Positions 22,798 to 35,977 of a stretch of 47,056 nt of DNA are shown here, in pieces. How positions within the stretch are numbered: the stretch's first letter is position 1; each line of letters opens with the position of its first letter. This DNA comes from a virus, in the IMG/VR virus record IMGVR_UViG_3300006805_000046, positions 1 through 47,056 of that record; one strand, 5' to 3'. The notes under the pieces are model-generated. The model did no database searches, had not been told where the DNA came from, and saw only the letters and a program-made list of their open reading frames with translations. The position numbers and the translations under genes were made by a program.

Positions 22798-25700
22798 TTA
22801 GATGTTACCCATTCCCACCGGAGCTTTCGTTCCAGTAGTGTTGGTAACCTTACTGGATACCGGCTTTAGTGCAGCAGGTGCAGCGCTACCCGTGGCTAAG
22901 GATTTCAAGTTAGCAGTGTTACTGCGAACATCAACCATGAGTGTAACCAACTCGCCCAAGTGTGCACGCATTGCAGTTTGTACTGTTAACTGCTGTTGTA
23001 GTAACGATGCAGTATCTGCAAGGTTCTTAGTGTTGGACATGCTAGTTGCATTTTGTGCAGATGCATTAGCGATCGAGGCCTGCGTTGTTGCAGCTTTCGC
23101 TGTCGCAACTACAGGCGCAGTTGTGTACACTGGAGCAGGAGCAGTAACCACAGGCTTAGCGGCTGCTGGTGCAGCTGCGGCTGGCTTAGCGGCTGCTGGT
23201 GCAGCTGCGGCTGGCTTAGCGGCTGCTGGGGTGACTGGCAAGCTAGCAGCGGTAACTGCTGGGATAGTCACACCGCCGGCCGATTTAACCGGTGCGGCTG
23301 CTGCAGGCTTGGCTCCCGGTGGAGTTAGCATGAGTGGTGGAGTACCGGCTGCTGGTTTAGCTGCTGGCGGTTTTGGTAACGGGGCGGGCGGAGGTGTGGC
23401 CATTGGTTTATTACCAGCCGCTTGCTGCGATGCACCCGATGGTACCGCGGGTGCCTTTTCACCAACCACTTTAAGCGGCGGAACTGCAGGGGTACCTGTA
23501 GCGCCAGTTGAGGCTGGCGCTGTAGTGGAAGGGACAATCTTACCAGCGTATGCCAGTGGAAGCCATTTCTCTACACCCTTGGCGACGTGTTCCAGTCCAA
23601 TTGTGCCGCCGTTCAATACCTTACGGATTGCCTTGGTATCACCAGTAGCCAACAACTTCTTACCGACACGCTGTGTCATGAAGTACATGGTCGTTTTAGC
23701 AGCTACCTCTGGATCAAATACCAGGTCAGGATTGTTAACCAAGTCCAAACCCAAATATTTACCAGCGGCAGCGTAGTTACCTTTACCTGTCAACTGAATG
23801 AATCCACGACCGCGGTATTTCCACCCCTCATCGTTTTCATCATTACCCATACGACCGCCATATAGGAAATTAGCAATCGCGCGCGGCCCGCCTGCTACAG
23901 CGGCTTCAGTTGCAGCTCGACCCTTTTTCTGAGCTGTTTTAAACAGCTTCATCATTGTGTCGGCTTTGTAGTTTAGGTTTTCGTCGATTCGAGTAAACCC
24001 ACCCGTTTCGTTGTCAACGTTAGCCATGATCTGCGCTTGGGAGACTGGATCCGTAATACCCTGTGCAAGCATTTCTCGAACCATCGCATCGCGATTTTTC
24101 TGAGCATCACCCTTCAAGGTTTTATAGACCATTGTTCCTGCTGCGCCGACTGCACCAGCGACACCACCCTGCGCGTAGCCTTTGCTGGCTTCATTGCCGG
24201 CGGTCGTTAAAAAGTCCTTAGTAGTATTAAACGCATTAACGGCGCCTTCGATCAGAGAACTGGTACCGTCAACGGCTTTCCCGTAAAGGTCCATCGCATT
24301 CTTACCCAGTTTCTTATAACGATCGATTCGACTCTGGATGATAGAGGCTACCGCCTGTTTGGATTTACTCCAATAAGACTTTTGCTCATCTTCCATCTGT
24401 TTCTTTTGTTCTGCTGCTTTCTGTGCTGGACTCTTTGCAGCCTCTACCTTACGGGCTGTAACTTCTTCGTCGTGTTTGGAACCATCGTCTTCAACGATCT
24501 CCAATGTGTCTTCGTATTTACTATTGACTTGACCCATGTCCAGATCAACCTTACCCTTGTCTGCAGGGAATGGGGATAGACCTACGGCGTAGGGGGAACG
24601 GTCATCAAGTGGGAAGTGGGTACGTTTAATCAGTGCAATCTTTTCTTTGGTGTAGAGGTTATCATCCACCCCTGCCAGATCAGTTTTACCGGTAAGGTCA
24701 CAAAGTACCGTCAGGTGCGAAAGATACACAGGCTTAAAGCGATACTGGAACCAGCTCAAGAAGTTTTGCAACTCCTCTTCCTTGGTGTGATCAATGCCAA
24801 AGATCTTAATCATCTCTGAAACTTTAACCCCAGTGCCCAGTTTAGCTTCTTTGCCTTTAGAAACCTGAACAACCTTAATAAGCATTTGTTCCAGTGCGGC
24901 AATCTTACCCACTTTCTCTTCGTCTTTGGTTTTGAAACCATACTGCGCCATGCGATACTGGGTTACCCAATTGCGTGGGCGCGTCGCGTACTTGTACGCT
25001 TTGTAACCGACGTAGGCAACCAGCGCAGCTGCACCGACTGCCAGTGTGACAGGAGAGGTTAGAATAGCCAAAGCACCAGTGCCGATAGCCCCTGCTATAC
25101 TGCCCGCAGTGGCGAGTGCAGATGCACCCATAGTGGTACCAGCCAAAGCCATTCCACCACGCGCCAGCAGCGAGCCTGCGCCCTTAGCGACTGCCCAGGC
25201 ACCCTTACCGGCTAACTGCGCACCCTTTAGTCCCACTTTAGCAGAGAATATCGTTGCTTTACCGATAACTCCCAAAGCTTTCGTAATGAGCCCGAAGCCT
25301 GGAATCAATCCGAAGATTGCTTTAGTGAGACCGCCTAACCCGCCAGTCAATGCACCCAATATTTTCTTTATGCCACCTAACCCGCCACCCAGTAGACCCA
25401 TGAGGCCACCGCCGCCGTCATCTTCTTTCTTTTCCTTACGACTGAAGAAGCCTTTCATCTTGTCCCACATGGAACCAGACTTGGCTTTCTCTGCATCGGC
25501 TTCGGCTTCGGCGCGGGCTTGTAGCTGGTCTTCGCGTGAACCGTTGCGATCACCGTCCCCATCCGTATCACCGGACACTTTTGGTTTACCGCCTGGTAAC
25601 CGTTCTTCGAGTATGGCGTAGATCTTATCTAAACGATCCACCACTGGTTTGGAATAACCCAGGAGAGAGAAACCGCTGAACATGTTCTTGACGACTTCCC

Positions 25701-28700
25701 AACCGCCACCAAAGAACTGCTTCAACATGTCCACGCCACCCATGGCTTTCTTCAGTAACCACTTGCCAGCCTTTAAACCAAAGCCAGCTACTGCACCCAA
25801 AGCACTCCCAATCTTAGCACCGATTGTTCGCAACGGTTTACCGTTAACGTCAACCAATCCCTTGTGAATGTCTTCGGTCGTCAGTAGGACGTTACCTGTA
25901 TCGTCAACCACGTCACTGGTGATGTCAGCAATGCCGTGCACCGCTTTACCATCTTTCTTTCGAGTGTACCCGCCTTCACGCATGACACGTGCTAGCAATC
26001 GAGGCTTATCCTCGCCCGTCACGTAAACGTCTTTGGCTTTCACCAACTTAAGCAAAGCAGGGATGCCTTTCTTAAGCGTATTGAAAACAAAACGATGTGG
26101 TGCTATCAGTAGGTTTGCACCAGACATGAGTGCATTGAAGGCCATTACCGGCAACGGCTTACCAAACTTATCCACCAGACCCTTTTCAAAGTCAGCAGCG
26201 CTGATAACCTCATCACCTTCTTCATTCATCACTGGACCAGTAATGTCACGCATGGACTTAATGACTTTGCCAGACTGTTTATCCGTGTACTTACCTTGAC
26301 GCATGTTAACGGCTTGGATGCGTGGATGTTCTTCACCTTTGACGTAGATGTCTTTAAACCGCGCCGTTGCAGCGCCGACCATTCCACTACCAAAGTTTAA
26401 AGCACCCTTACCAAGTTTAAACACACCCTTGGCCATGGCTGGTATTTTACCGCGAATAAACTTACCGGCGTTATAGACTTTCTTTAAGCCACCGCCAATA
26501 ATCTTACCGCCTAGCTTGCCAACCTTACCGATACCGCGACCAATGCCGACGTAGAGCCTGTCCATCCCTTGTAACTTAGGACCTGGACCACCGCCACCGC
26601 CACCACCTTCTTGACTAGCAAGGATGTTAAGAATCGCTTCAACGGATTGCGCAATGCCAAAAACTGCTTCAGCCATACTGCCAGATATTTCTTGCTGGAC
26701 AGCAGCGGCTTCCGTCGTCGCTTCGATTAGCGCCTCAGTGGCCGATGGTTCTGTAGACAGTGGTACTGGAGCACCAGCATTGTTTCCGGCATCGACCGTA
26801 GGGGTAGGTTGTGCAGCAGGCCCACCAGAGGCTCCGCCTGCACCAGCACCAGGTGCTGCAGCGGCTTTCATTCTGACTTCGATGTACTTACGTGCTTTAG
26901 CTGCTACGTCTTCAGCAGCTTTAGCGGCTTCTTCGAGTTTACGTTTAGCTTCACCCTGCAAATGTTCACGATCAATACGGTCACGTAGTTTATTTGCAGT
27001 GGCAGTTGCCTCGCCGATTAGCGATCGTGCTTTATCAAGTGCAGCAGGACTGTGATCAGCATAGAGGGTCTTTGCTTTGTCAACTAATGGTTCTAGTTCA
27101 CTGCGAATGCTTTTCGAAAGCGATTCTAACATTGACTTTGCACGATCACGCGCATCGCGCAGTGCCTGCCTAGCGGCGTCTGCCATGCTCGGTGGAGGAG
27201 GTCCTTCGACTTCAGGAGATGCCGGATTGTTAGTAAGGTCTCCAATCAAGTCAGAGCCCAGATTACGCAAGCTACCAACTTTATTTCGAATAACCTGGGC
27301 AGCCGATAACGGTGAACCGCCTGGAGTCGGAGATGGACCACCTGCTCCACCAGCACCACCACCGCGACGCGGCTTACGCTTTGACTTAGCCTGTTTCAGT
27401 CGATCTCGTAGCTTGTTAACTTTCTCTGGCTCGCCGATGTAGTCTAAGAAAGCTTTCTGATTAACAACCCACTGTGATCCGTTGTGAGTAATCAACCCTA
27501 ACTCTTCTAGGTTTTCCTGGTTGCCATTAGCAGTTTCTTCAATGAGAATCCGTTGCAAATCTGGAATGCTGTTTACGGTGCTATCAAAAGCATTTAGGAT
27601 GTTCCCTAGATTTTCTTGACCATCACCTTCTAAGTCATCTTTATACAACTTAGTAAAGCCATCCTCAGCGTACGATTCTTTGATGCCAGCCACACCTTGC
27701 AAGTGAGACTTAATCTCACGGGAAGTTTTATGGTCAACGTCTTTACCCAGACTACCATCTTTCATAAAGGTATTAACTGAAAAACCCTCACCAGCCTCAG
27801 CGGCTTTCAATACCGCTTTACGCAACGCTTCCTGCGCTGGACGAGATAACTGGTCGGCTTTCATAGCCTCCATTACCTTATCCAAGTTAGCATTGACGTG
27901 ATCTTTGGTGCGTGAGTTCAGAACGGCATCTTTGATGCGCGCTGTGGTAGACTTGGCATCGTCAAACTTCCCACTCGTCATTGAGTAATTAAGTGGACGT
28001 AATGATTCATCACCGGTGCGTGTAATACGCAGCTCGTTATGGATGCGAGCTAGCCATCCTGGAATAATTTCTGTCAGTGCCAGCCGTGCATGCAGATTGA
28101 AGTGAACGGCTTCATCCAATTTACCCGCTGCGGATTTACGCACACCGCGTTCTTTGGTAAATGTGCCCATGCCTTCACGGACTTCACCCAGGAACATGTC
28201 AATCAGCACATTACCACTACTCTGGCCACCTTTAGACCACTCGTTTGCTTGCGTACCAATGGTGCGCTTCATGTTATTTATTTTGCGGCCAAAGTTTACA
28301 ACTTTCTTGTTCTTGGCTAAGTATCCAGCTAGGGGTTTGGTTATTTTCCCCAACAATTTACCCATACCAAAATTACCAAGTAATCCGCCGCCTGCGTCGA
28401 TTGCAGTATCCTGGCCAGACATGCCCATCTCGCCAGCCATCTCTGCCCCGCTACGCCCTAGCTCAGCCACGCCAGTAATCTGACTGATATTCCCAGAAAG
28501 ATCTTGAGCAAAGTTATTAACCTTACTGGTGAAATGGTTTATGACACGTTTACCAATACCGCCAGTCCAGCCGTTTATGGAACCGCTGATTTTACCAAAC
28601 AGACTCTGCTTTAATAGCTGTTCGATAACTTCTTTGTTATGCATCTTAACAAAGTCAGGCAGTCCAGTATTCTTGCGAATATCTTTTAGGTGTTCGCCAG

Positions 28701-29436
28701 AGATTTTACTGTGTGCTTCAAATGCCGTAAGCAATCGCTTCTGAACGTAGTACTGACGATATTGGAGTTCGAGTGACTTCTGCTGGTACTTATGCGTGAC
28801 TTGATCTTGGTAGTTAGTTAAACGCCCAATCCCTTGTCGGATGGCATCGAGTTGATTTAGCGAGTTAAGCTGCAACTTGCTATTAACCAAATCCCGTACC
28901 TGTGACTTTGCTTCGTCACTGCGGTCACGCTGGGCTTGATCCTCGGCCTGTAGCTGAAAGATCTGTCCTAAATCAGACGCAATGGAGCGTGATTCCATCT
29001 CCTCATCTGACATCCGCTTATAGACTTCTTCAGCCTTAGACCACTCTTTGAGTTTCTTGTGAATCTTTTCTGGTAGAAAGCCTGGCTTCTCAGGAAGAAT
29101 GGCGCGTACTGCACCCTTCATATCCTGCGTAACAGCCTTTGCTTCCTTAGCAGCGGTATCGTATAGTTCGCCCAATCCACTGGCAGTCGCGTCGATTGTC
29201 TCGTATGCAGTGTCGTAACCTGGTGGTAATGCATCCTTGATAAATTTTATCTGGGCGCGTGGATCTTTGATATGATCTAATGCACCGCCAGCAAGAGCTT
29301 TGGCAGCACGTGTGACCGGTTTTCTATCTTCCTTACCACCGGAAGGTCCATTACCGAAATCATCCGACCCGAACTCGAGGTCGTTGAAATCGTCCATGCT
29401 GAAGTCATCTAACTGACCTGGTTTTTTCTTTGCCAC
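22798..29436 (-). CDS. Giant tape-measure-like protein with GH19-type lysin domain
   Basis: About 2,212 residues. GTG at 29436 has AGGGGAG seven bases upstream and gives MAKKKPGQ; ATG 29469 adds 11 residues with a weaker site. Layout: acidic N-terminus; helical region (50-550); Pro/Ala-rich linkers (about 690-900); Gly-rich hydrophobic helices; two tandem copies of a module of about 80 residues (KDIYVKGEEHPRI near 1030, KDVYVTGEDKPRL near 1135), each ending KGLVD-GKPL; more membrane-like helices (about 1360-1470); a GH19 chitinase/lysozyme-like domain (about 1785-1965) with NETGGF (catalytic Glu) and YRGRGFIQLTGKGNY; a long Ala/Pro/Lys repeat tail. Length and lysin match phiKZ gp181 as I recall. 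It should set tail length or the inner tube and open peptidoglycan during entry. Confidence 0.85.
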   Translation of the reverse strand: MAKKKPGQLDDFSMDDFNDLEFGSDDFGNGPSGGKEDRKPVTRAAKALAGGALDHIKDPRAQIKFIKDALPPGYDTAYETIDATASGLGELYDTAAKEAKAVTQDMKGAVRAILPEKPGFLPEKIHKKLKEWSKAEEVYKRMSDEEMESRSIASDLGQIFQLQAEDQAQRDRSDEAKSQVRDLVNSKLQLNSLNQLDAIRQGIGRLTNYQDQVTHKYQQKSLELQYRQYYVQKRLLTAFEAHSKISGEHLKDIRKNTGLPDFVKMHNKEVIEQLLKQSLFGKISGSINGWTGGIGKRVINHFTSKVNNFAQDLSGNISQITGVAELGRSGAEMAGEMGMSGQDTAIDAGGGLLGNFGMGKLLGKITKPLAGYLAKNKKVVNFGRKINNMKRTIGTQANEWSKGGQSSGNVLIDMFLGEVREGMGTFTKERGVRKSAAGKLDEAVHFNLHARLALTEIIPGWLARIHNELRITRTGDESLRPLNYSMTSGKFDDAKSTTARIKDAVLNSRTKDHVNANLDKVMEAMKADQLSRPAQEALRKAVLKAAEAGEGFSVNTFMKDGSLGKDVDHKTSREIKSHLQGVAGIKESYAEDGFTKLYKDDLEGDGQENLGNILNAFDSTVNSIPDLQRILIEETANGNQENLEELGLITHNGSQWVVNQKAFLDYIGEPEKVNKLRDRLKQAKSKRKPRRGGGAGGAGGPSPTPGGSPLSAAQVIRNKVGSLRNLGSDLIGDLTNNPASPEVEGPPPPSMADAARQALRDARDRAKSMLESLSKSIRSELEPLVDKAKTLYADHSPAALDKARSLIGEATATANKLRDRIDREHLQGEAKRKLEEAAKAAEDVAAKARKYIEVRMKAAAAPGAGAGGASGGPAAQPTPTVDAGNNAGAPVPLSTEPSATEALIEATTEAAAVQQEISGSMAEAVFGIAQSVEAILNILASQEGGGGGGGPGPKLQGMDRLYVGIGRGIGKVGKLGGKIIGGGLKKVYNAGKFIRGKIPAMAKGVFKLGKGALNFGSGMVGAATARFKDIYVKGEEHPRIQAVNMRQGKYTDKQSGKVIKSMRDITGPVMNEEGDEVISAADFEKGLVDKFGKPLPVMAFNALMSGANLLIAPHRFVFNTLKKGIPALLKLVKAKDVYVTGEDKPRLLARVMREGGYTRKKDGKAVHGIADITSDVVDDTGNVLLTTEDIHKGLVDVNGKPLRTIGAKIGSALGAVAGFGLKAGKWLLKKAMGGVDMLKQFFGGGWEVVKNMFSGFSLLGYSKPVVDRLDKIYAILEERLPGGKPKVSGDTDGDGDRNGSREDQLQARAEAEADAEKAKSGSMWDKMKGFFSRKEKKEDDGGGGLMGLLGGGLGGIKKILGALTGGLGGLTKAIFGLIPGFGLITKALGVIGKATIFSAKVGLKGAQLAGKGAWAVAKGAGSLLARGGMALAGTTMGASALATAGSIAGAIGTGALAILTSPVTLAVGAAALVAYVGYKAYKYATRPRNWVTQYRMAQYGFKTKDEEKVGKIAALEQMLIKVVQVSKGKEAKLGTGVKVSEMIKIFGIDHTKEEELQNFLSWFQYRFKPVYLSHLTVLCDLTGKTDLAGVDDNLYTKEKIALIKRTHFPLDDRSPYAVGLSPFPADKGKVDLDMGQVNSKYEDTLEIVEDDGSKHDEEVTARKVEAAKSPAQKAAEQKKQMEDEQKSYWSKSKQAVASIIQSRIDRYKKLGKNAMDLYGKAVDGTSSLIEGAVNAFNTTKDFLTTAGNEASKGYAQGGVAGAVGAAGTMVYKTLKGDAQKNRDAMVREMLAQGITDPVSQAQIMANVDNETGGFTRIDENLNYKADTMMKLFKTAQKKGRAATEAAVAGGPRAIANFLYGGRMGNDENDEGWKYRGRGFIQLTGKGNYAAAGKYLGLDLVNNPDLVFDPEVAAKTTMYFMTQRVGKKLLATGDTKAIRKVLNGGTIGLEHVAKGVEKWLPLAYAGKIVPSTTAPASTGATGTPAVPPLKVVGEKAPAVPSGASQQAAGNKPMATPPPAPLPKPPAAKPAAGTPPLMLTPPGAKPAAAAPVKSAGGVTIPAVTAASLPVTPAAAKPAAAAPAAAKPAAAAPAAAKPVVTAPAPVYTTAPVVATAKAATTQASIANASAQNATSMSNTKNLADTASLLQQQLTVQTAMRAHLGELVTLMVDVRSNTANLKSLATGSAAPAALKPVSSKVTNTTGTKAPVGMGNI
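23161..23220. repeat. Two exact 30-bp tandem repeats in the giant gene
   Basis: Two perfect 30-bp copies (23161-23190 and 23191-23220) with degenerate copies on both sides, encoding the Ala/Pro/Lys tail of the tape-measure protein (AAAAPAAAKP units). In-frame length changes by slippage would be tolerated. Confidence 0.9.
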
Positions 29437-29496
29437 GGGTTTTCTCCCCTGGTTGACAAATGTGTTCATAAAATCCGTTAATAAAGGAGAACGAGC
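29437..29496. promoter_or_regulatory. Very short divergent start region
   Basis: Only 60 bases (27 if the ATG at 29469 is used) separate the starts of the giant minus-strand gene and the polymerase beta-prime gene. It holds AAATCCGTTAATAAAGGAG, including the ribosome site of the plus-strand gene. Promoters must be very compact or lie in the opposing coding sequences. Confidence 0.35.
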
Positions 29497-31503
29497 GTGA
29501 AACGCTTAGACTTACCTGCGAACATCACACTGATGGAACTGACGCCACAGCGCCTCCAGTCCCTTAGACCGGTACGGGTGTTAGACATCTACGATACCGC
29601 TCCAAACTTCCATCCGGATGGACTGTTCTCTACGGAGATCTTTGGACGGGTGGGTAGCGAGATGCGCGACGAGCGCTTCTCCTATATTGACTTACGTGCT
29701 TCCGTGTTACACCCAGTTATCTTTCAACACCTTTGTAAACTCAAAGGGTTGTATGGTGGAATCCTGTCAGGCAAAGCATTTGCCATTTGGAATCCAGTGG
29801 AAAAAGATTTTGAAGCCAGCGACGCTTTAAATGGCGAGTCCGGTTATGCGTTCTTCATGAGCCACTATAAAGAACTAATATTTAAACCGACTGGTTCGGA
29901 TGCCCGTGACGTACGCATTCAGTTGATTCAGAAATTCAAAGATCGTGCATTGACCTCTAAAGTGTTGGTCATTCCAGCCGGACTACGCGACATTGAAGTC
30001 GATGTGACAGGTCGTGAAAAAGAAGGTGAGATTAATGGCTTCTACCGTTCACTCATCTCGACCTCTAATGCGATTGGTATTACCAGCGATTTGAATTCGC
30101 CTATTCTGAATAACTCACGTTACTCCATGCAACTGGCTTTTAACAACATCTACGATTACCTGCATAACTTGATTCAGGGTAAGTCTGGATTCATTCAGGG
30201 TAAGTGGGGTGCACGGCGTATCTTTAACGGTACCCGTAACGTGATCTCCGCCATGGATACCTCAGTCGCAGTGATGGGTGCAAAGAATTCACCTACCTCC
30301 ACACAGTCAAGCGTTGGTTTGTTTCAAACCATCAAAGGGGTATTGCCACTGACCAAGCATTTATTGCTAACCGGTTGGCTACGACGCGTCTTTCAAACAG
30401 AAGACGGTATGGTGACATTAGTAAACCCCGCCACCTTGCAGCCAGAGTCATTTCGTATATCGCCCACGGTAACTGACCGCTGGTTTACCAGCTCTGGATT
30501 GGAAAGCGTTATTAATAGCTATTCCGCTGCCTCAGTGAGACTTAAACCGGTCATGATTGAAAACTATTATGTCGGCCTAGTCTACCGTCCAAAAGATCGC
30601 ATGGTATTCAAGTTCTTTAATGACATCCGTGAATTGCCAGAAGGCGCATTGCGCTCCGATGTTCATCCTATCTCGCTGTGTGAGCTGATATACATAGCTG
30701 GGTATATGAAGTGGAATGAACTGGCTATGTTTGTTACTCGGTATCCAATTACTGGACTGGGATCAATCTATCCATCGCTACCGTACGTTAAGAACACCGT
30801 CGTCAGTGAAGTTCGTCGTGAGTTAGATGAAACCTGGAAAGAGTACCCAGAGGAATTTACCGCACTCGAGTATCCCACCTTTGAACGTGAGGTGTTTATC
30901 GACACGCTGATCCCACATCCTCGACACCTTGAGGCCATGGGTGGTGATTAAAACTAAAGCAAAACATGTTTCAAAAGCTTTAGAAATAGTCCTCTCATGT
31001 AGTAATGCATGAGCAGTTTTCTCTTTAATTGCTGGAAACCCCTAAAGCTGTTCCACCACTGCGAGGCGAAAGCCAAAGCCATGGTTTGAAAACGGAACGG
31101 ATATTACAATGGGCAACCGTGGGTTCTAAGAACCCCTTTAGCAGCCAAGCTCCTGTTAAATGGAGAAGGTTCAACGACTAACCCTTTACCAGGGTGTACC
31201 GATCAAGCGATTGGGAAATGGGAGACACCCTACTCGAAAGAGGGGGTGAAGATATAGTCTGGCCTCATGGGAAACCATGAGCTGCGCATAATGGCGCGGG
31301 ATTGATTTTGCGAATCAGTCTGAACATAAGCGTTTGATGGCGATACGTGTTCTGCAAACTTTTTGTATGCCGATGAATCGGTAGCTGAAATCAAGAAGCG
31401 CCTCGAAGATCCCCGTGCGTATATTCGTGGGGATAATAGCTTGCGCGATTCACCCATCGTTGAAACAGTGGAACGCGTATTGGCGGCCATGACCGGAGAT
31501 TAA
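29497..31503 (+). CDS. RNA polymerase beta-prime N-terminal subunit, split by a group I intron
   Basis: Spliced product 540 residues: exon 1 is 29497-30948 (GTG start after AAAGGAG; 484 codons), exon 2 is 31333-31503 (56 codons plus TAA). Motifs in order: DGLFSTEIFGRV (41-52, the beta-prime 'GLF..IFGP' opening), VIPAGLRDIEVD with N-x-x-Y/F-R-x-I (RDLxP region), GFIQGKWGARRIFNGTRNVIS (the G-K-R-x-x-x-S-G-R-x-V loop), and the catalytic DFDGD, whose Asp484, 486 and 488 hold Mg2+. The intron lies right after Asp484. Without splicing the protein ends at that residue on TAA. In phiKZ this would correspond to gp180, part of the virion polymerase, by synteny. The C-terminal half of beta-prime is not in the window. 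Confidence 0.9.
30949..31332 (+). ncRNA. Group I intron (self-splicing), ORF-less, 384 nt
   Basis: Starts right after a T (exon ...GGTGGTGAT) and ends on G (...AAGCG), as group I introns do. Conserved elements: P AATTGCTGGAAA (31027-31038), Q-like GCAGCCAAGC (31141-31150), R GTTCAACGACTA (31169-31180) and S AAGATATAGTC (31249-31259). R and S pair (GACTA/TAGTC) as P7, the guanosine site. Stem-loops: CTAAAGC/GCTTTAG (30954-30960, 30977-30983) and CTCATG/CATGAG (30994-30999, 31008-31013). A tentative P1 pairs GGTGAT with GTCCTC (30989-30994) with one mismatch. No open frame of useful length or homing endonuclease lies inside. The sequence resembles phage IA-type introns such as T4 td. Confidence 0.93.
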
Positions 31504-31507
31504 TGGC

Positions 31508-34500
31508 ATGATTCATTATAACCAATTTTACCGTAAGTACGGCATTAGACAACAGGGGCTATTGGCACGCCCCATGCTGCACTCACTTACGTCATTTCAG
31601 TTACCGTTTAACTCTATCCTGCATCATCTTGGGGAAGACGGTACACTGATGTCGGCCAGTGACTTAGCCTATCAGGGTAACGCTGGTCGGTACGTCATGA
31701 CGCAGCATGTGGTGTCATTGGCAGAAGATGCAACATTGGGCAATCCAATTAACATCCCAACTGACCGCAATCTGCTGATGCGTCACTTTCATCAAAAGAA
31801 CTTGAAGTTTCGACTCACCCGCGATTACACAATCGTACTAAACGATGCTAAGCAATTGGTAACGTTTAACTACGCTTTCTTAGAGCGCCTGTATCGCTAC
31901 CCGAAGACCCCACTGCAACCGTACTACGAGTGGTGTAACCATTACCGCACCATGTGGGAGAACGTTGCTGCTATTGCACCAACAACAACTCGTCAACACT
32001 TTGTGATGATGGATCTCCCGATGGGTTTGGCTGCCCCTTCAATTTATCAGAAGTATGAAACTTCTGGTTTGAACCTATCCATGCTAGCTCGTCAGTTTAC
32101 AAACCCAAAAGCGTTTGCATTGGCTGACTTGTGGACATGGCTTGGTGCTGAGCGCGAGAAGTCTATTCTGTCAGTGCTGCCTACTGAAGTATTGAACAAA
32201 GTAAACTTAGTCTGGGTTGAAACTGGCCACTGGACTGTCATCAATCTGGGACTGTTGGAAGCATGGCGTAACAATCCAGAAGTAACGGAAGCGATGACTG
32301 CGGGTTTTACGGCTAACTTGAAACTGTTGGGTGCTAACGCAGGTCAACTTGATCCACTGCAGATGCAGCGTCGTATGTTGCGCATGTGGATGTCGTTGAT
32401 TGAAGCCCGTTCCGTTTCTGACGTAGATGAACTCTCGGATCAGGAATTGGATATTAAAGGACAGGCTAGTCCAGCGTCGGTGGATAACGATGCTAACCGT
32501 GATGCAGATGGGGAGTTGGTATTTAACCCAGCGCAAGCCGACGAAGCAGAGGTTACGATTGATGGCCAGTTGGATGATATTGAAATTCCAACCATGGTAC
32601 CAAACGCTAAACCTACACAGATGCCGGTTAACGCTACTCCGCCGACAGAGACAACCGACGACAGCGCTCCAAAGAAGAAATCCCGATACGCCGATGCTAA
32701 AGCACAGGATGCTACCAAACCTGAAGAGCTGGATGTAGGGGATGTTGAATTAGATCTACCGCCAGACGAAAGCGATATAATGGATGACAAAGCCATCGAT
32801 GCCGATTTGGCTGCACTCGAGAAAACTGCAAATGAAGCAGAAGTACTCCAGGAAGAATCCGTCGGTTATAAGCCATACGTCCCACCGACTGATTCAATGG
32901 AAGCGGGTGTAACGGATTCGGCTAAGCGTCTGGTGGCTCGAGGTGTATTGTCCCCTGCGCAATATCGACGCATGGAACAGTTAGCCGTGCGTTATAAAGA
33001 GATTCCCAATCCATACGAACGTGGTACTAAACTGGATGCGCTTACGCACCTTACAACCGCTGATGTTGAGATGGCCGTTAAAACGCCAATCGCCCCGTCT
33101 GTTAGTGGTGTGTCTGATGCCTCAATGCTTTCCTCTTCACTCAATCGTTTCGATCGCGACTACGTACGTGAAGTGATGAAGAAAGACGTTGTGAAAATGG
33201 CATTGAACGTGCAGAAAGCCGGTATCGCAATTCAGAACTACGAAGTTGATCGCATTGATGAACTGAATGGTTCGTACGAAATACACACGGTGAAAGTAGT
33301 TCCAGTAATTGGGACGCCTTCTACCCTGCGGTTTAACTTACCCGTGGTGGATGACAACGGTACCTTTCGTGCAAAGGGTGTGAAGTATCGCATGCGTAAG
33401 CAACGCGGTGATTTACCTATCCGAAAGATATCTCCTAGCGAAGTAGCGATGACTAGCTATTACAGCAAGTTGTTTGTTAGTCGCTCAGACCGTGCCGTCT
33501 TTAACTATTCCAACTGGTTATTAAATCAGATTACTGCACGAGCCGTAGACACTCTGGATGATTCGGTAACGGATATTAAATTAGGTGACGTGTTCGTTAA
33601 CGAAGCTAAAGTCCCGCGAATCTATTCCACGATTGCCATGCGTTGCTCCGAGTTTAAGTCAGGGGAATATCATTTCTTCTTTGATTACGACAAACGGGAA
33701 CGTTTCTTTGGCCCAGATACCATCAAAGCCATTGAAGGGAAAAAGGGATTGGTACCGGTTGGTAAAGCCGCTGGTGATATCCTCATCATGGATACCAAGA
33801 ACGTAGTGCACCGTATTGTGGCAGAGGGCGACAAACACGTCGCTAAACCGTTGGGTACGTTGGAACAGATCCTGAAATTACCGGCGGCCAAAGCACCAGT
33901 GGAAATCGCTGAGGTAGGCATCTACGGTAAAGCAATCCCAATTGGGATTGTACTTACTTACGAAACTGGTTTGGGTAATCTACTGGAAACGTTGAAGCCT
34001 GACTATCGTCGCGTTGCTACCCGTGAACGTTACGTGTTAGGGGACGATGAGTTTGATGTACGGTTTGAAGATGAAGCATTGATTTTCAAACGCAGTGACA
34101 AAACAGCCCAGCTTATATTTGGTGGGTTTAATCGTTACCGCACAGACATTCGTCGCTACTCAGTTTACCACTTCGATAAGAAAGAAACGATTGCTGCAAT
34201 CCTGGATAACAACGGATTGGGCTCACGCTTCCCACGCGAAATGGATCTAATGTTTAAAATGTGGGTTGACCACATTACCCGTGAGCTACTGGTTGAGATG
34301 AAAGAGCCTACGGATTTGTTTAATCTGTTTATCTCTGCCGTTCGCAAACTGGAAACTGATGATCATCCTTTGGCGGTGGACAATCTGTTCATGCGCGACA
34401 AAGGCTACGAGCGTTTTGCTGGTTTAATGTACGGCGAGATCGTGCGTTCAATGCGTCAATACTCCGGTAAGCCTGCCAATGCCAAAGCGACTGTGGACTT

Positions 34501-35977
34501 AAATCCCTACGCGGTATGGAAAGCCATTACTGATGATGCAACCGTGACGGTGGTAGAAGACTCCAATCCATTGGGTAATCTCCAAGAGAAAGAAGTGGTG
34601 GTATTCCGTGGGGGTGGTGGACGCAGCGCGCGTTCAATGACCGCTAAGCATCGTGCCTTCCACAAGAACGGTATTGGTGTTGTATCTGAAGCTACTCCAG
34701 ATAACGGTGACACTGCTACCATTACGTATCTGACGGCTGATCCAAGCTATCGTAGTCTGCGTGGAACTATTGAACCGGTAACGAAGGTTGATGGTAACAT
34801 GGCTCGTGTGGTAAGTACCAGTACAATGATGGCACCTGGCGCTGAACACGACGATCCTAAACGTATCAACTTTATCAGTATTCAGAACAAACAAACCACA
34901 CACTGTGTCGGTTATACTCCAATGCCATGTCGTACTGGCTATGAGCGCGTCATTGCTCATCGCACGGATGACCTGTATGCAAAGACTGCACGACTGGGCG
35001 GTGTAGTGGATGCAGTAACCGATAAAACCATTAGTGTAACGTACAGTGATGGTGAGCGTGTCAGTTATGAACTGGGCAGACGCTTCGGCGTATGGGCTGG
35101 CAATAACATTCCCCACATGGTTACAACTGAGCGCACGAAAGGTGAAGTGATTCGCCCAGGTGACGTGCTCTGCTACAACAGCAACTTCTTCGAACCAGAC
35201 AACCTCGACCCTAATCAGGTTGTAATGAAAACCGGCGCGTTAGCACGCACGGCTTTGTTTGAATCGACGGACACGCTGGAAGATTCCTGCACCATCTCAG
35301 AAGAGCTAGCTGCACGACTGTCAACGACCTCCACCGAAATCCGCATCGTACAAGTTACCAATGATCAAGAAATTAGAAATGCCTTGAAAGTTGGAGATGT
35401 AGTAGATGTAGAGAGTATTTTATGTACCATCGAGAATACTACGGCAGGTCGTAGCGAACTTTTCGACGACGCTGCGCTGGATACATTGAAGCTGTTATCG
35501 AACTTGACCCCTAAGGCTAAAGCCCGTGGCGTCATTGAACGCATCGAAGCAGTTTACACCGGCGATGTTGACGAAATGTCACCCTCCATTCGCGCTATTG
35601 TTGAACGGTCTGACCAGGACATCTATCGTCTAAATAAACAGCTTGGGAAACCAGCTGTGTCGGGACAGGTAGCCGTTGGGTTCCGCATCAATGGTCAGGA
35701 AATGGGTGTCGATGTGGTTGCTATCCGTTACTACATTACCGGCCCAGTATCAATGGGTATTGGTGACAAAGGAGTATTTGCCAATCAGATGAAGTCCGTT
35801 GTTGGACGCGTCATGTTGGGTGAGAATACAACTGAGTCGGGTGAAGCGATTGATGCAGTGTTCAGTTATCAATCTATCGCCAAGCGAGTGGTGTTGTCGG
35901 CGGAACTGATTGGAACCACCAATCGTCTCTGTGTTGAAGTAGGGCGACTGGCCCTTGAGGCATATCGGTCATCTTAA
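31508..35977 (+). CDS. RNA polymerase beta subunit, main part (lacks C-terminus)
   Basis: 1,489 residues, ATG 31508, four bases after the beta-prime stop; GGAG is ten bases upstream. Beta-like features: NGTFRAKGVKYRMRKQRGDLP (about 614-635, the 'GTFIINGxER' region), SRSDRAVFNYSN, a KDVV/GDVL-type series, and near the end ITGPVSMGIGDKGVFANQ (the GDK..NKG catalytic lysine region) followed by GEAIDAVFSYQSIAKRVVLSAELIGT (PVDIxxxPxxxxxRM..GQ). It stops before the final beta domain, which is the separate 14646-15314 gene. An acidic, Pro/Thr-rich insert of about 145 residues (303-447) interrupts the N-terminal part and looks disordered. It matches phiKZ gp178 by position. Together with the beta-prime gene it builds the catalytic core. 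Confidence 0.85.
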   Translation: MIHYNQFYRKYGIRQQGLLARPMLHSLTSFQLPFNSILHHLGEDGTLMSASDLAYQGNAGRYVMTQHVVSLAEDATLGNPINIPTDRNLLMRHFHQKNLKFRLTRDYTIVLNDAKQLVTFNYAFLERLYRYPKTPLQPYYEWCNHYRTMWENVAAIAPTTTRQHFVMMDLPMGLAAPSIYQKYETSGLNLSMLARQFTNPKAFALADLWTWLGAEREKSILSVLPTEVLNKVNLVWVETGHWTVINLGLLEAWRNNPEVTEAMTAGFTANLKLLGANAGQLDPLQMQRRMLRMWMSLIEARSVSDVDELSDQELDIKGQASPASVDNDANRDADGELVFNPAQADEAEVTIDGQLDDIEIPTMVPNAKPTQMPVNATPPTETTDDSAPKKKSRYADAKAQDATKPEELDVGDVELDLPPDESDIMDDKAIDADLAALEKTANEAEVLQEESVGYKPYVPPTDSMEAGVTDSAKRLVARGVLSPAQYRRMEQLAVRYKEIPNPYERGTKLDALTHLTTADVEMAVKTPIAPSVSGVSDASMLSSSLNRFDRDYVREVMKKDVVKMALNVQKAGIAIQNYEVDRIDELNGSYEIHTVKVVPVIGTPSTLRFNLPVVDDNGTFRAKGVKYRMRKQRGDLPIRKISPSEVAMTSYYSKLFVSRSDRAVFNYSNWLLNQITARAVDTLDDSVTDIKLGDVFVNEAKVPRIYSTIAMRCSEFKSGEYHFFFDYDKRERFFGPDTIKAIEGKKGLVPVGKAAGDILIMDTKNVVHRIVAEGDKHVAKPLGTLEQILKLPAAKAPVEIAEVGIYGKAIPIGIVLTYETGLGNLLETLKPDYRRVATRERYVLGDDEFDVRFEDEALIFKRSDKTAQLIFGGFNRYRTDIRRYSVYHFDKKETIAAILDNNGLGSRFPREMDLMFKMWVDHITRELLVEMKEPTDLFNLFISAVRKLETDDHPLAVDNLFMRDKGYERFAGLMYGEIVRSMRQYSGKPANAKATVDLNPYAVWKAITDDATVTVVEDSNPLGNLQEKEVVVFRGGGGRSARSMTAKHRAFHKNGIGVVSEATPDNGDTATITYLTADPSYRSLRGTIEPVTKVDGNMARVVSTSTMMAPGAEHDDPKRINFISIQNKQTTHCVGYTPMPCRTGYERVIAHRTDDLYAKTARLGGVVDAVTDKTISVTYSDGERVSYELGRRFGVWAGNNIPHMVTTERTKGEVIRPGDVLCYNSNFFEPDNLDPNQVVMKTGALARTALFESTDTLEDSCTISEELAARLSTTSTEIRIVQVTNDQEIRNALKVGDVVDVESILCTIENTTAGRSELFDDAALDTLKLLSNLTPKAKARGVIERIEAVYTGDVDEMSPSIRAIVERSDQDIYRLNKQLGKPAVSGQVAVGFRINGQEMGVDVVAIRYYITGPVSMGIGDKGVFANQMKSVVGRVMLGENTTESGEAIDAVFSYQSIAKRVVLSAELIGTTNRLCVEVGRLALEAYRSS

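Follow-up and report, generated by a model that had tools for sequence, protein, structure and literature searches.

A group I intron, very probably self-splicing, lies between codons 1 and 2 of the catalytic DFDGD motif in the gene for the virion RNA polymerase β′-N subunit of a phiKZ-like jumbo phage, a reading to which we assign a probability of about 95%. It occupies positions 30949–31332 on the forward strand of the window, by which we mean the whole 47,056-nucleotide stretch of viral DNA analysed (IMG/VR record IMGVR_UViG_3300006805_000046). Few codons in biology are as constrained as the catalytic ones of multisubunit RNA polymerases. The class and boundaries of the intron, the protein restored by joining the exons, the recurrence of the insertion site and the presence of empty alleles in related phages can all be read from sequence.

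The intron is 384 nucleotides long, starts with TAAAAC, which contains an in-frame UAA stop codon, and finishes with AAGCG, the last base being G. A scan of the whole window against Rfam returned a single match, to the group I intron family RF00028 at 30970–31281 (60.5 bits, E 5.4e-13), and the covariance score on which the original prediction had been staked is thus above the gathering score of 50 bits. The match is far beyond chance and the element is a genuine group I intron. The Q element (TAATTGCTGGAA, 31026–31037), the R element (GTTCAACGACTA, 31169–31180) and the S element (GATATAGTCTG, 31251–31261) show no mismatches to the consensus used. R and S supply the 5′ and 3′ strands of P7, which in the window intron is GACUA/UAGUC with all five positions paired; among the introns compared, P7 varies by compensatory changes (GACUA/UAGUC, GACCA/UGGUC and GAUCA/UGAUC). 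An extended P1, at 30937–30998, was identified by RNA folding, and consists of the exon 12-mer AUGGGUGGUGAU and the internal guide UAGUCCUCUCAU, with a CUAAAGC/GCUUUAG extension. Folding of 30937–31005 gave −14.5 kcal/mol with a z score of −2.2. At the splice site itself P1 is short (GAU/GUC) and has interruptions. The 5′ exon ends in a U opposite the G of GUC, and the intron ends in G (GAU↓ and AAGCG↓, where arrows mark splice sites), as is characteristic of group I introns. Folding of the whole intron gave a z score of −4.3, and none of 100 shuffled sequences folded equally well. The boundaries are where the original prediction had put them, right to the base, and the P, Q, R and S elements, the preceding U and the terminal G that it had listed are all present. 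The intron was also correctly said to lack a reading frame: no open reading frame of at least 80 amino acids was found in it, and therefore no intron-encoded homing endonuclease. No match to HNH_3, HNH or GIY-YIG nucleases was obtained anywhere in the 47-kb record, which is possibly a fragment.

Exon 1 (29497–30948, forward strand) begins with a GTG start codon, encodes 484 amino acids ending in GGD, and has the 3′ end ATGGGTGGTGAT. The gene is a homologue of phiKZ gp180 and 201phi2-1 gp275, and tblastn gave matches in 294 phage records. On its own the exon 1 product matches positions 2–484 of the 539 in phrog_2986 (RNA polymerase beta subunit; 589 bits, E 1e-176). Exon 2 (31333–31504, forward strand) has the 5′ end TTTGATGGCGAT, lacks a start codon at FDGD, and encodes 56 amino acids (FDGDTCSANFLY...AAMTGD) before closing with TAA. 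Joining the exons in phase 0, with the predicted junction GGTGGTGAT-TTTGATGGC, gives a 540-amino-acid protein reading GGDFDGDTCSA, which matches phrog_2986 over positions 6–538 of 539 (645 bits), DFDGD included. The insertion is therefore after the first Asp of DFDGD, as proposed, and the spliced protein fills the family profile. Downstream lies the gene for the virion RNA polymerase β subunit (phiKZ gp178 homologue, 31508–35977, forward strand, 1489 amino acids; phrog_3148, 1512 bits), in which we saw no sign of interruption. On the reverse strand at 22798–29469, the position of phiKZ gp181, is a divergent tail fibre gene with an endolysin domain (phrog_3201, 894 bits; Glyco_hydro_19). The order phrog_3201, 2986, 3148, 3841, 2926, corresponding to homologues of tail fibre/endolysin, β′-N, β-N, gp177 and gp176, is the same in phiKZ and 201phi2-1. 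This gene order, together with the phrog_2986 match, identifies the split gene as that for virion polymerase β′-N. The product would presumably be an active polymerase subunit carried in the virion.

Guanosine-dependent self-splicing would be expected to follow the usual course. The exon end GAU of the transcript would pair with the guide GUC of the intron, guanosine would attack after the exon-end U, and the freed exon would then attack after the terminal G, joining the exons in phase 0 to encode the catalytic subunit. Unspliced mRNA has UAA directly after GGD; ribosomes would stop at this codon, and the product would lack FDGD and with it the metal-binding loop. The earlier claim that active polymerase needs splicing agrees with this arrangement, and splicing of the window gene is probably obligatory in cells.

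The original prediction implied that an intron at this position is rare. This does not hold, since the same site is occupied in phiKZ, OMKO1, fMGyn-Pae01 and many metagenomic relatives. In all, the identical site D↓FDGD carries an intron in phiKZ, ten further Phikzvirus isolates and 16 other metagenomic lineages (131 lineages compared). These introns, in phiKZ, U1B, OMKO1, fMGyn-Pae01 and many IMG/VR contigs, follow GAT and end in G immediately before TTY. The U1B, OMKO1 and fMGyn-Pae01 genes are interrupted as GCGGAT↓..ACG↓TTTGAC by group I introns of 1443 and 481 nucleotides scoring 88–93 bits. By megablast, at least 79% of the length of the OMKO1 intron was found in 11 Phikzvirus phages, phiKZ among them. 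When a 106-amino-acid query spanning the junction was used in tblastn, some Phikzvirus records matched the exon 2 part alone. The phage SL2, whose exon 1 is 99% identical, is uninterrupted and provides a collinear empty allele, GCGGAT↓TTCGACGGGGAC.

The phiKZ gp180/gp179 intron, found also in U1B, T2P, U5, PhiPizzaParty, phi9_PA9, LC and Wadjak 1 and 2, interrupts the same gene as the window intron, at GAT↓TTY, has a group I core and ends with ..ACG. It differs in its place in another part of the core tree and, in phiKZ, U1B and Wadjak 1, in its length of 1443 nucleotides and its HNH_3-type endonuclease reading frame, which the window intron lacks. The OMKO1 and fMGyn-Pae01 intron resembles the window intron in being ORF-less, but it is 481 nucleotides long and its neighbour in the core tree is the phiKZ-type intron of U1B. 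In phiKZ (NC_004629 186157–189258, minus strand; our locus L230, 968–4068), gp180 is annotated as 490 amino acids ending in LGAD, gp179 lies inside the 1443-nucleotide intron, and exon 2 (FDGDTVSF..., about 56 residues including the catalytic FDGD) is unannotated. The predicted exon junction is GCGGAT-TTCGACGG, which joins GGGGGCGGAT to TTCGACGGGG and would yield the junction-spanning peptide sequence LGADFDGDTVSF. The phiKZ gp180 intron may have been described before; the legend to a diagram of the SPN3US, phiKZ and 201phi2-1 vRNAP subunits refers to introns and to a homing nuclease (PMC5105663, Fig. 7).

A sister intron is present in the non-virion polymerase. In phiKZ gp55/gp56/gp56.1 (locus L008, 1705–4543), the non-virion β′-N gene is cut at N↓ADFDGD by a group I intron carrying the HNH gene gp56. 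Like the window intron it interrupts a jumbo-phage RNA polymerase gene at the catalytic motif, here NADFDGD, and the two fall in the same supported clade (95/96); it differs in residing in the paralogous non-virion polymerase, one codon upstream, and in carrying gp56. PDB chain 7OGP_A, deposited as PHIKZ055 joined to PHIKZ056.1, reads ..KAPN↓ADFDGD; a splice point giving ..QLN↓ADFDGD was discarded, being off by four codons according to this chain. For native gp55 isolated from infected cells a size of 56 kDa is reported (PMC4666361), closer to that of the joined protein than to that of the 420-amino-acid open reading frame. These data support splicing of the intron at the paralogous motif but are no proof of it for the window, and the 7OGP chain may come from expression of exons that had already been joined. 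A phiKZ-like phage with an endonuclease-bearing intron in a virion polymerase gene had been mentioned in the original prediction. This is PhiPA3, whose virion polymerase gene gp210 has a group I intron at conserved aspartates (Birkholz et al. 2024, PMC11620839), but the gene concerned encodes the other large subunit, β (gp178 homologue). The PhiPA3 intron further differs from that of the window in encoding a functional nicking endonuclease (PMC11620839).

To follow the site across lineages we ran three IMG/VR scans with exon 1 alignments and added the phage loci, giving 222 usable rows, which were dereplicated to 131 lineages. Single-protein IMG/VR scans yielded no matches with exon 1, and one contig only with phiKZ gp55. 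An intron is present in the motif in 20 of the 131 lineages (15%; these are ranked hits and not an unbiased sample), and 18 use the exact site of the window. In L021 the insertion is shifted by one base (GACT↓TC), apparently keeping a U ahead of the intron. On the exon 1 tree of the 131 lineages, intron presence requires 16 changes, of which supported branches force 14, and exon 1 is almost identical in L086, which has a 1299-nucleotide intron with a reading frame, and in the empty L083. In Serratia phage 2050HW (locus L002, 3001–4640) the annotation of β′-N shows three overlapping CDS and no intron, resembling frameshifts in the sequence or the gene. The same-site introns range from 353 to 2294 nucleotides. 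Six contain long reading frames that resemble one another, and HNH_3 was matched by all three of those scanned, in one case below the cut-off. The L086 intron scores 47.3 bits against RF00028, and the same-site introns of L146, L149, L177, L200 and L215 are also below the gathering score. Four of these five retain R, S and a fully paired P7 (5/5); in L146, S could not be located confidently.

We rejected the idea that all same-site introns share one origin, as they formed one clade in 0% of bootstrap trees of the intron core (a short tree, mostly with weak support). The extracted cores of the window intron and the phiKZ gp180-type intron do not share a clade; occupation of the same site therefore does not mean the same recent ancestor. 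Group I introns close to that of the window were observed in the N4-type RNA polymerase genes of the N4-like Pseudomonas phages PAP02 and YH6 (L003 and L009), suggesting that introns may have moved between unrelated phage families infecting pseudomonads. The window intron is probably an endonuclease-free derivative of HNH-bearing introns that home to the motif in related phages, or a relative maintained alongside them, with a history that would include homing and endonuclease loss.

Three other explanations of the split gene were weighed. The 484-amino-acid part might be a separate subunit, with the intron a non-splicing relic of gene fission. In phiKZ-like phages the polymerases naturally consist of several separate polypeptides (PMC7598289), and exon 2 is absent from the phiKZ gp180 annotation. 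However, a break inside DFDGD would place the three metal-binding aspartates on two chains, exon 2 offers no start codon at FDGD, the P7, guide sequence and terminal G are intact and covarying, and in phiKZ the homologous nvRNAP protein forms a single joined chain. We regard fission as very improbable. Equally hard to credit is that the intron is inactive and the contig derives from a non-viable or assembly-mixed phage. The contig is indeed a single 47-kb metagenomic fragment, and its 60.5 bits are lower than the 88–93 of phiKZ-type introns, but other same-site introns score similarly low (58.8–63.1 bits), no conserved core motif has a mismatch, neither exon is interrupted by a stop, and the β gene downstream is intact.

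An intron that does splice could be kept as a regulator of polymerase production, through a splicing switch or delay, and not as a tolerated parasite. The late packaging of the host gene's product and the ORF-less forms in several lineages would suit such a role. The patchy distribution, in 20 of 131 lineages and with absence from near-identical phages, is better explained by a mobile element that is gained and lost, and we consider regulation unlikely, though somewhat less so than fission or a defective allele. A self-splicing group I intron within DFDGD remains by far the best account of the window.

The motif is invaded at other positions as well, group I introns being found at at least four points within the five DxDGD codons. 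Introns follow DFD in L220, L226 and PBS1, DFDG in phiR1-37 and DFDGD in L204. The guides track the site: perfect 6-bp P1 helices are formed by GGAGAU/GUCUCC in the second intron of L204 and by GAUGGU/GCCAUC in phiR1-37, and the PBS1 pairing is CUACGAU/GUCGUAG. The introns of Yersinia phage phiR1-37 (g178/g179) and Bacillus phage PBS1 (genes 35–33) are, like that of the window, group I introns in the DxDGD motif; they carry nuclease-like reading frames, and differ in being inserted after DFDG and DYD respectively. The phiR1-37 intron (L014, 4139–5551) scores 44 bits, below the cut-off, and its exon 2 is unannotated. In PBS1 (L013, 2356–5973) one polymerase gene carries a group II intron (80.7 and 55.2 bits) as well as, downstream of it, the group I intron (84 bits), each with a nuclease-like reading frame; the group II intron is a further difference from the window.

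Three contigs, L220, L226 and L204, have tandem introns enclosing predicted exons of 6 or 12 nucleotides. L220 (4947–5842; 76.5 and 63.9 bits) and L226 (4947–5701; 78.1 and 79.9 bits) each contain two group I introns around the predicted 6-nucleotide exon TTCGAT (FD), and L204 (4950–5956) contains two around the predicted 12-nucleotide exon TTCGACGGAGAT (FDGD). In the first L204 intron the Q, R and S elements match exactly, yet its score is under the Rfam cut-off. Tandem partners are each other's nearest kin in the intron-core tree (support 95/93 and 82/97), which suggests that they may have arisen by local copying. Small exons and exon skipping are already known for group I introns in phages (PMC11878797), and the predicted microexons would extend this behaviour.

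The first Asp codon is GAT in 18 of the 18 lineages with an intron at the exact site, because a U is needed before the splice site. Empty alleles have GAT in 11 of 111 cases and GAC in the other 100; GAT and intron presence are strongly associated (Fisher p 5e-13, from a slightly conservative table of 17/1 vs 11/100). Empty alleles exceed the context-matched expectation for GAC with z scores of 6.5–6.8, compared with −0.0 to 2.9 for other conserved Asp columns outside the motif. With strict dereplication at 65% identity the excess was 0.85 vs about 0.65 (p about 0.04), and after dereplication at 55% identity it was not significant. As it weakens in this way we hold it to be suggestive only; it might reflect evasion, loss of GAT alleles to invasion, or shared ancestry. 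A broader reading, which we offer tentatively and at rather under even odds, is that the DxDGD codons of jumbo-phage polymerases form a docking array. GAY-TTY-GAY-GGN-GAY would supply up to three GAU triplets usable by one guide (GUC); introns would enter behind any of the Asp codons and spread by copying to adjacent ones, giving tandem introns around 6–12-nucleotide exons, and intron-free phages would lean towards GAC as if evading invasion silently.

The kind of element described here is already known, and what specialists would want to pursue is the insertion hotspot, together with the predicted microexons and the codon signature. The public annotation of phiKZ gp180 stops before FDGD, which affects structural and proteomic work on the virion polymerase. 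These codons are among the most constrained known, yet they are repeatedly occupied by introns in jumbo phages, the model phage phiKZ included. They provide a compact natural experiment on intron targeting, in which a single motif offers at least four points of insertion, naturally occurring plus/minus pairs and a GAT/GAC choice that tracks occupancy.
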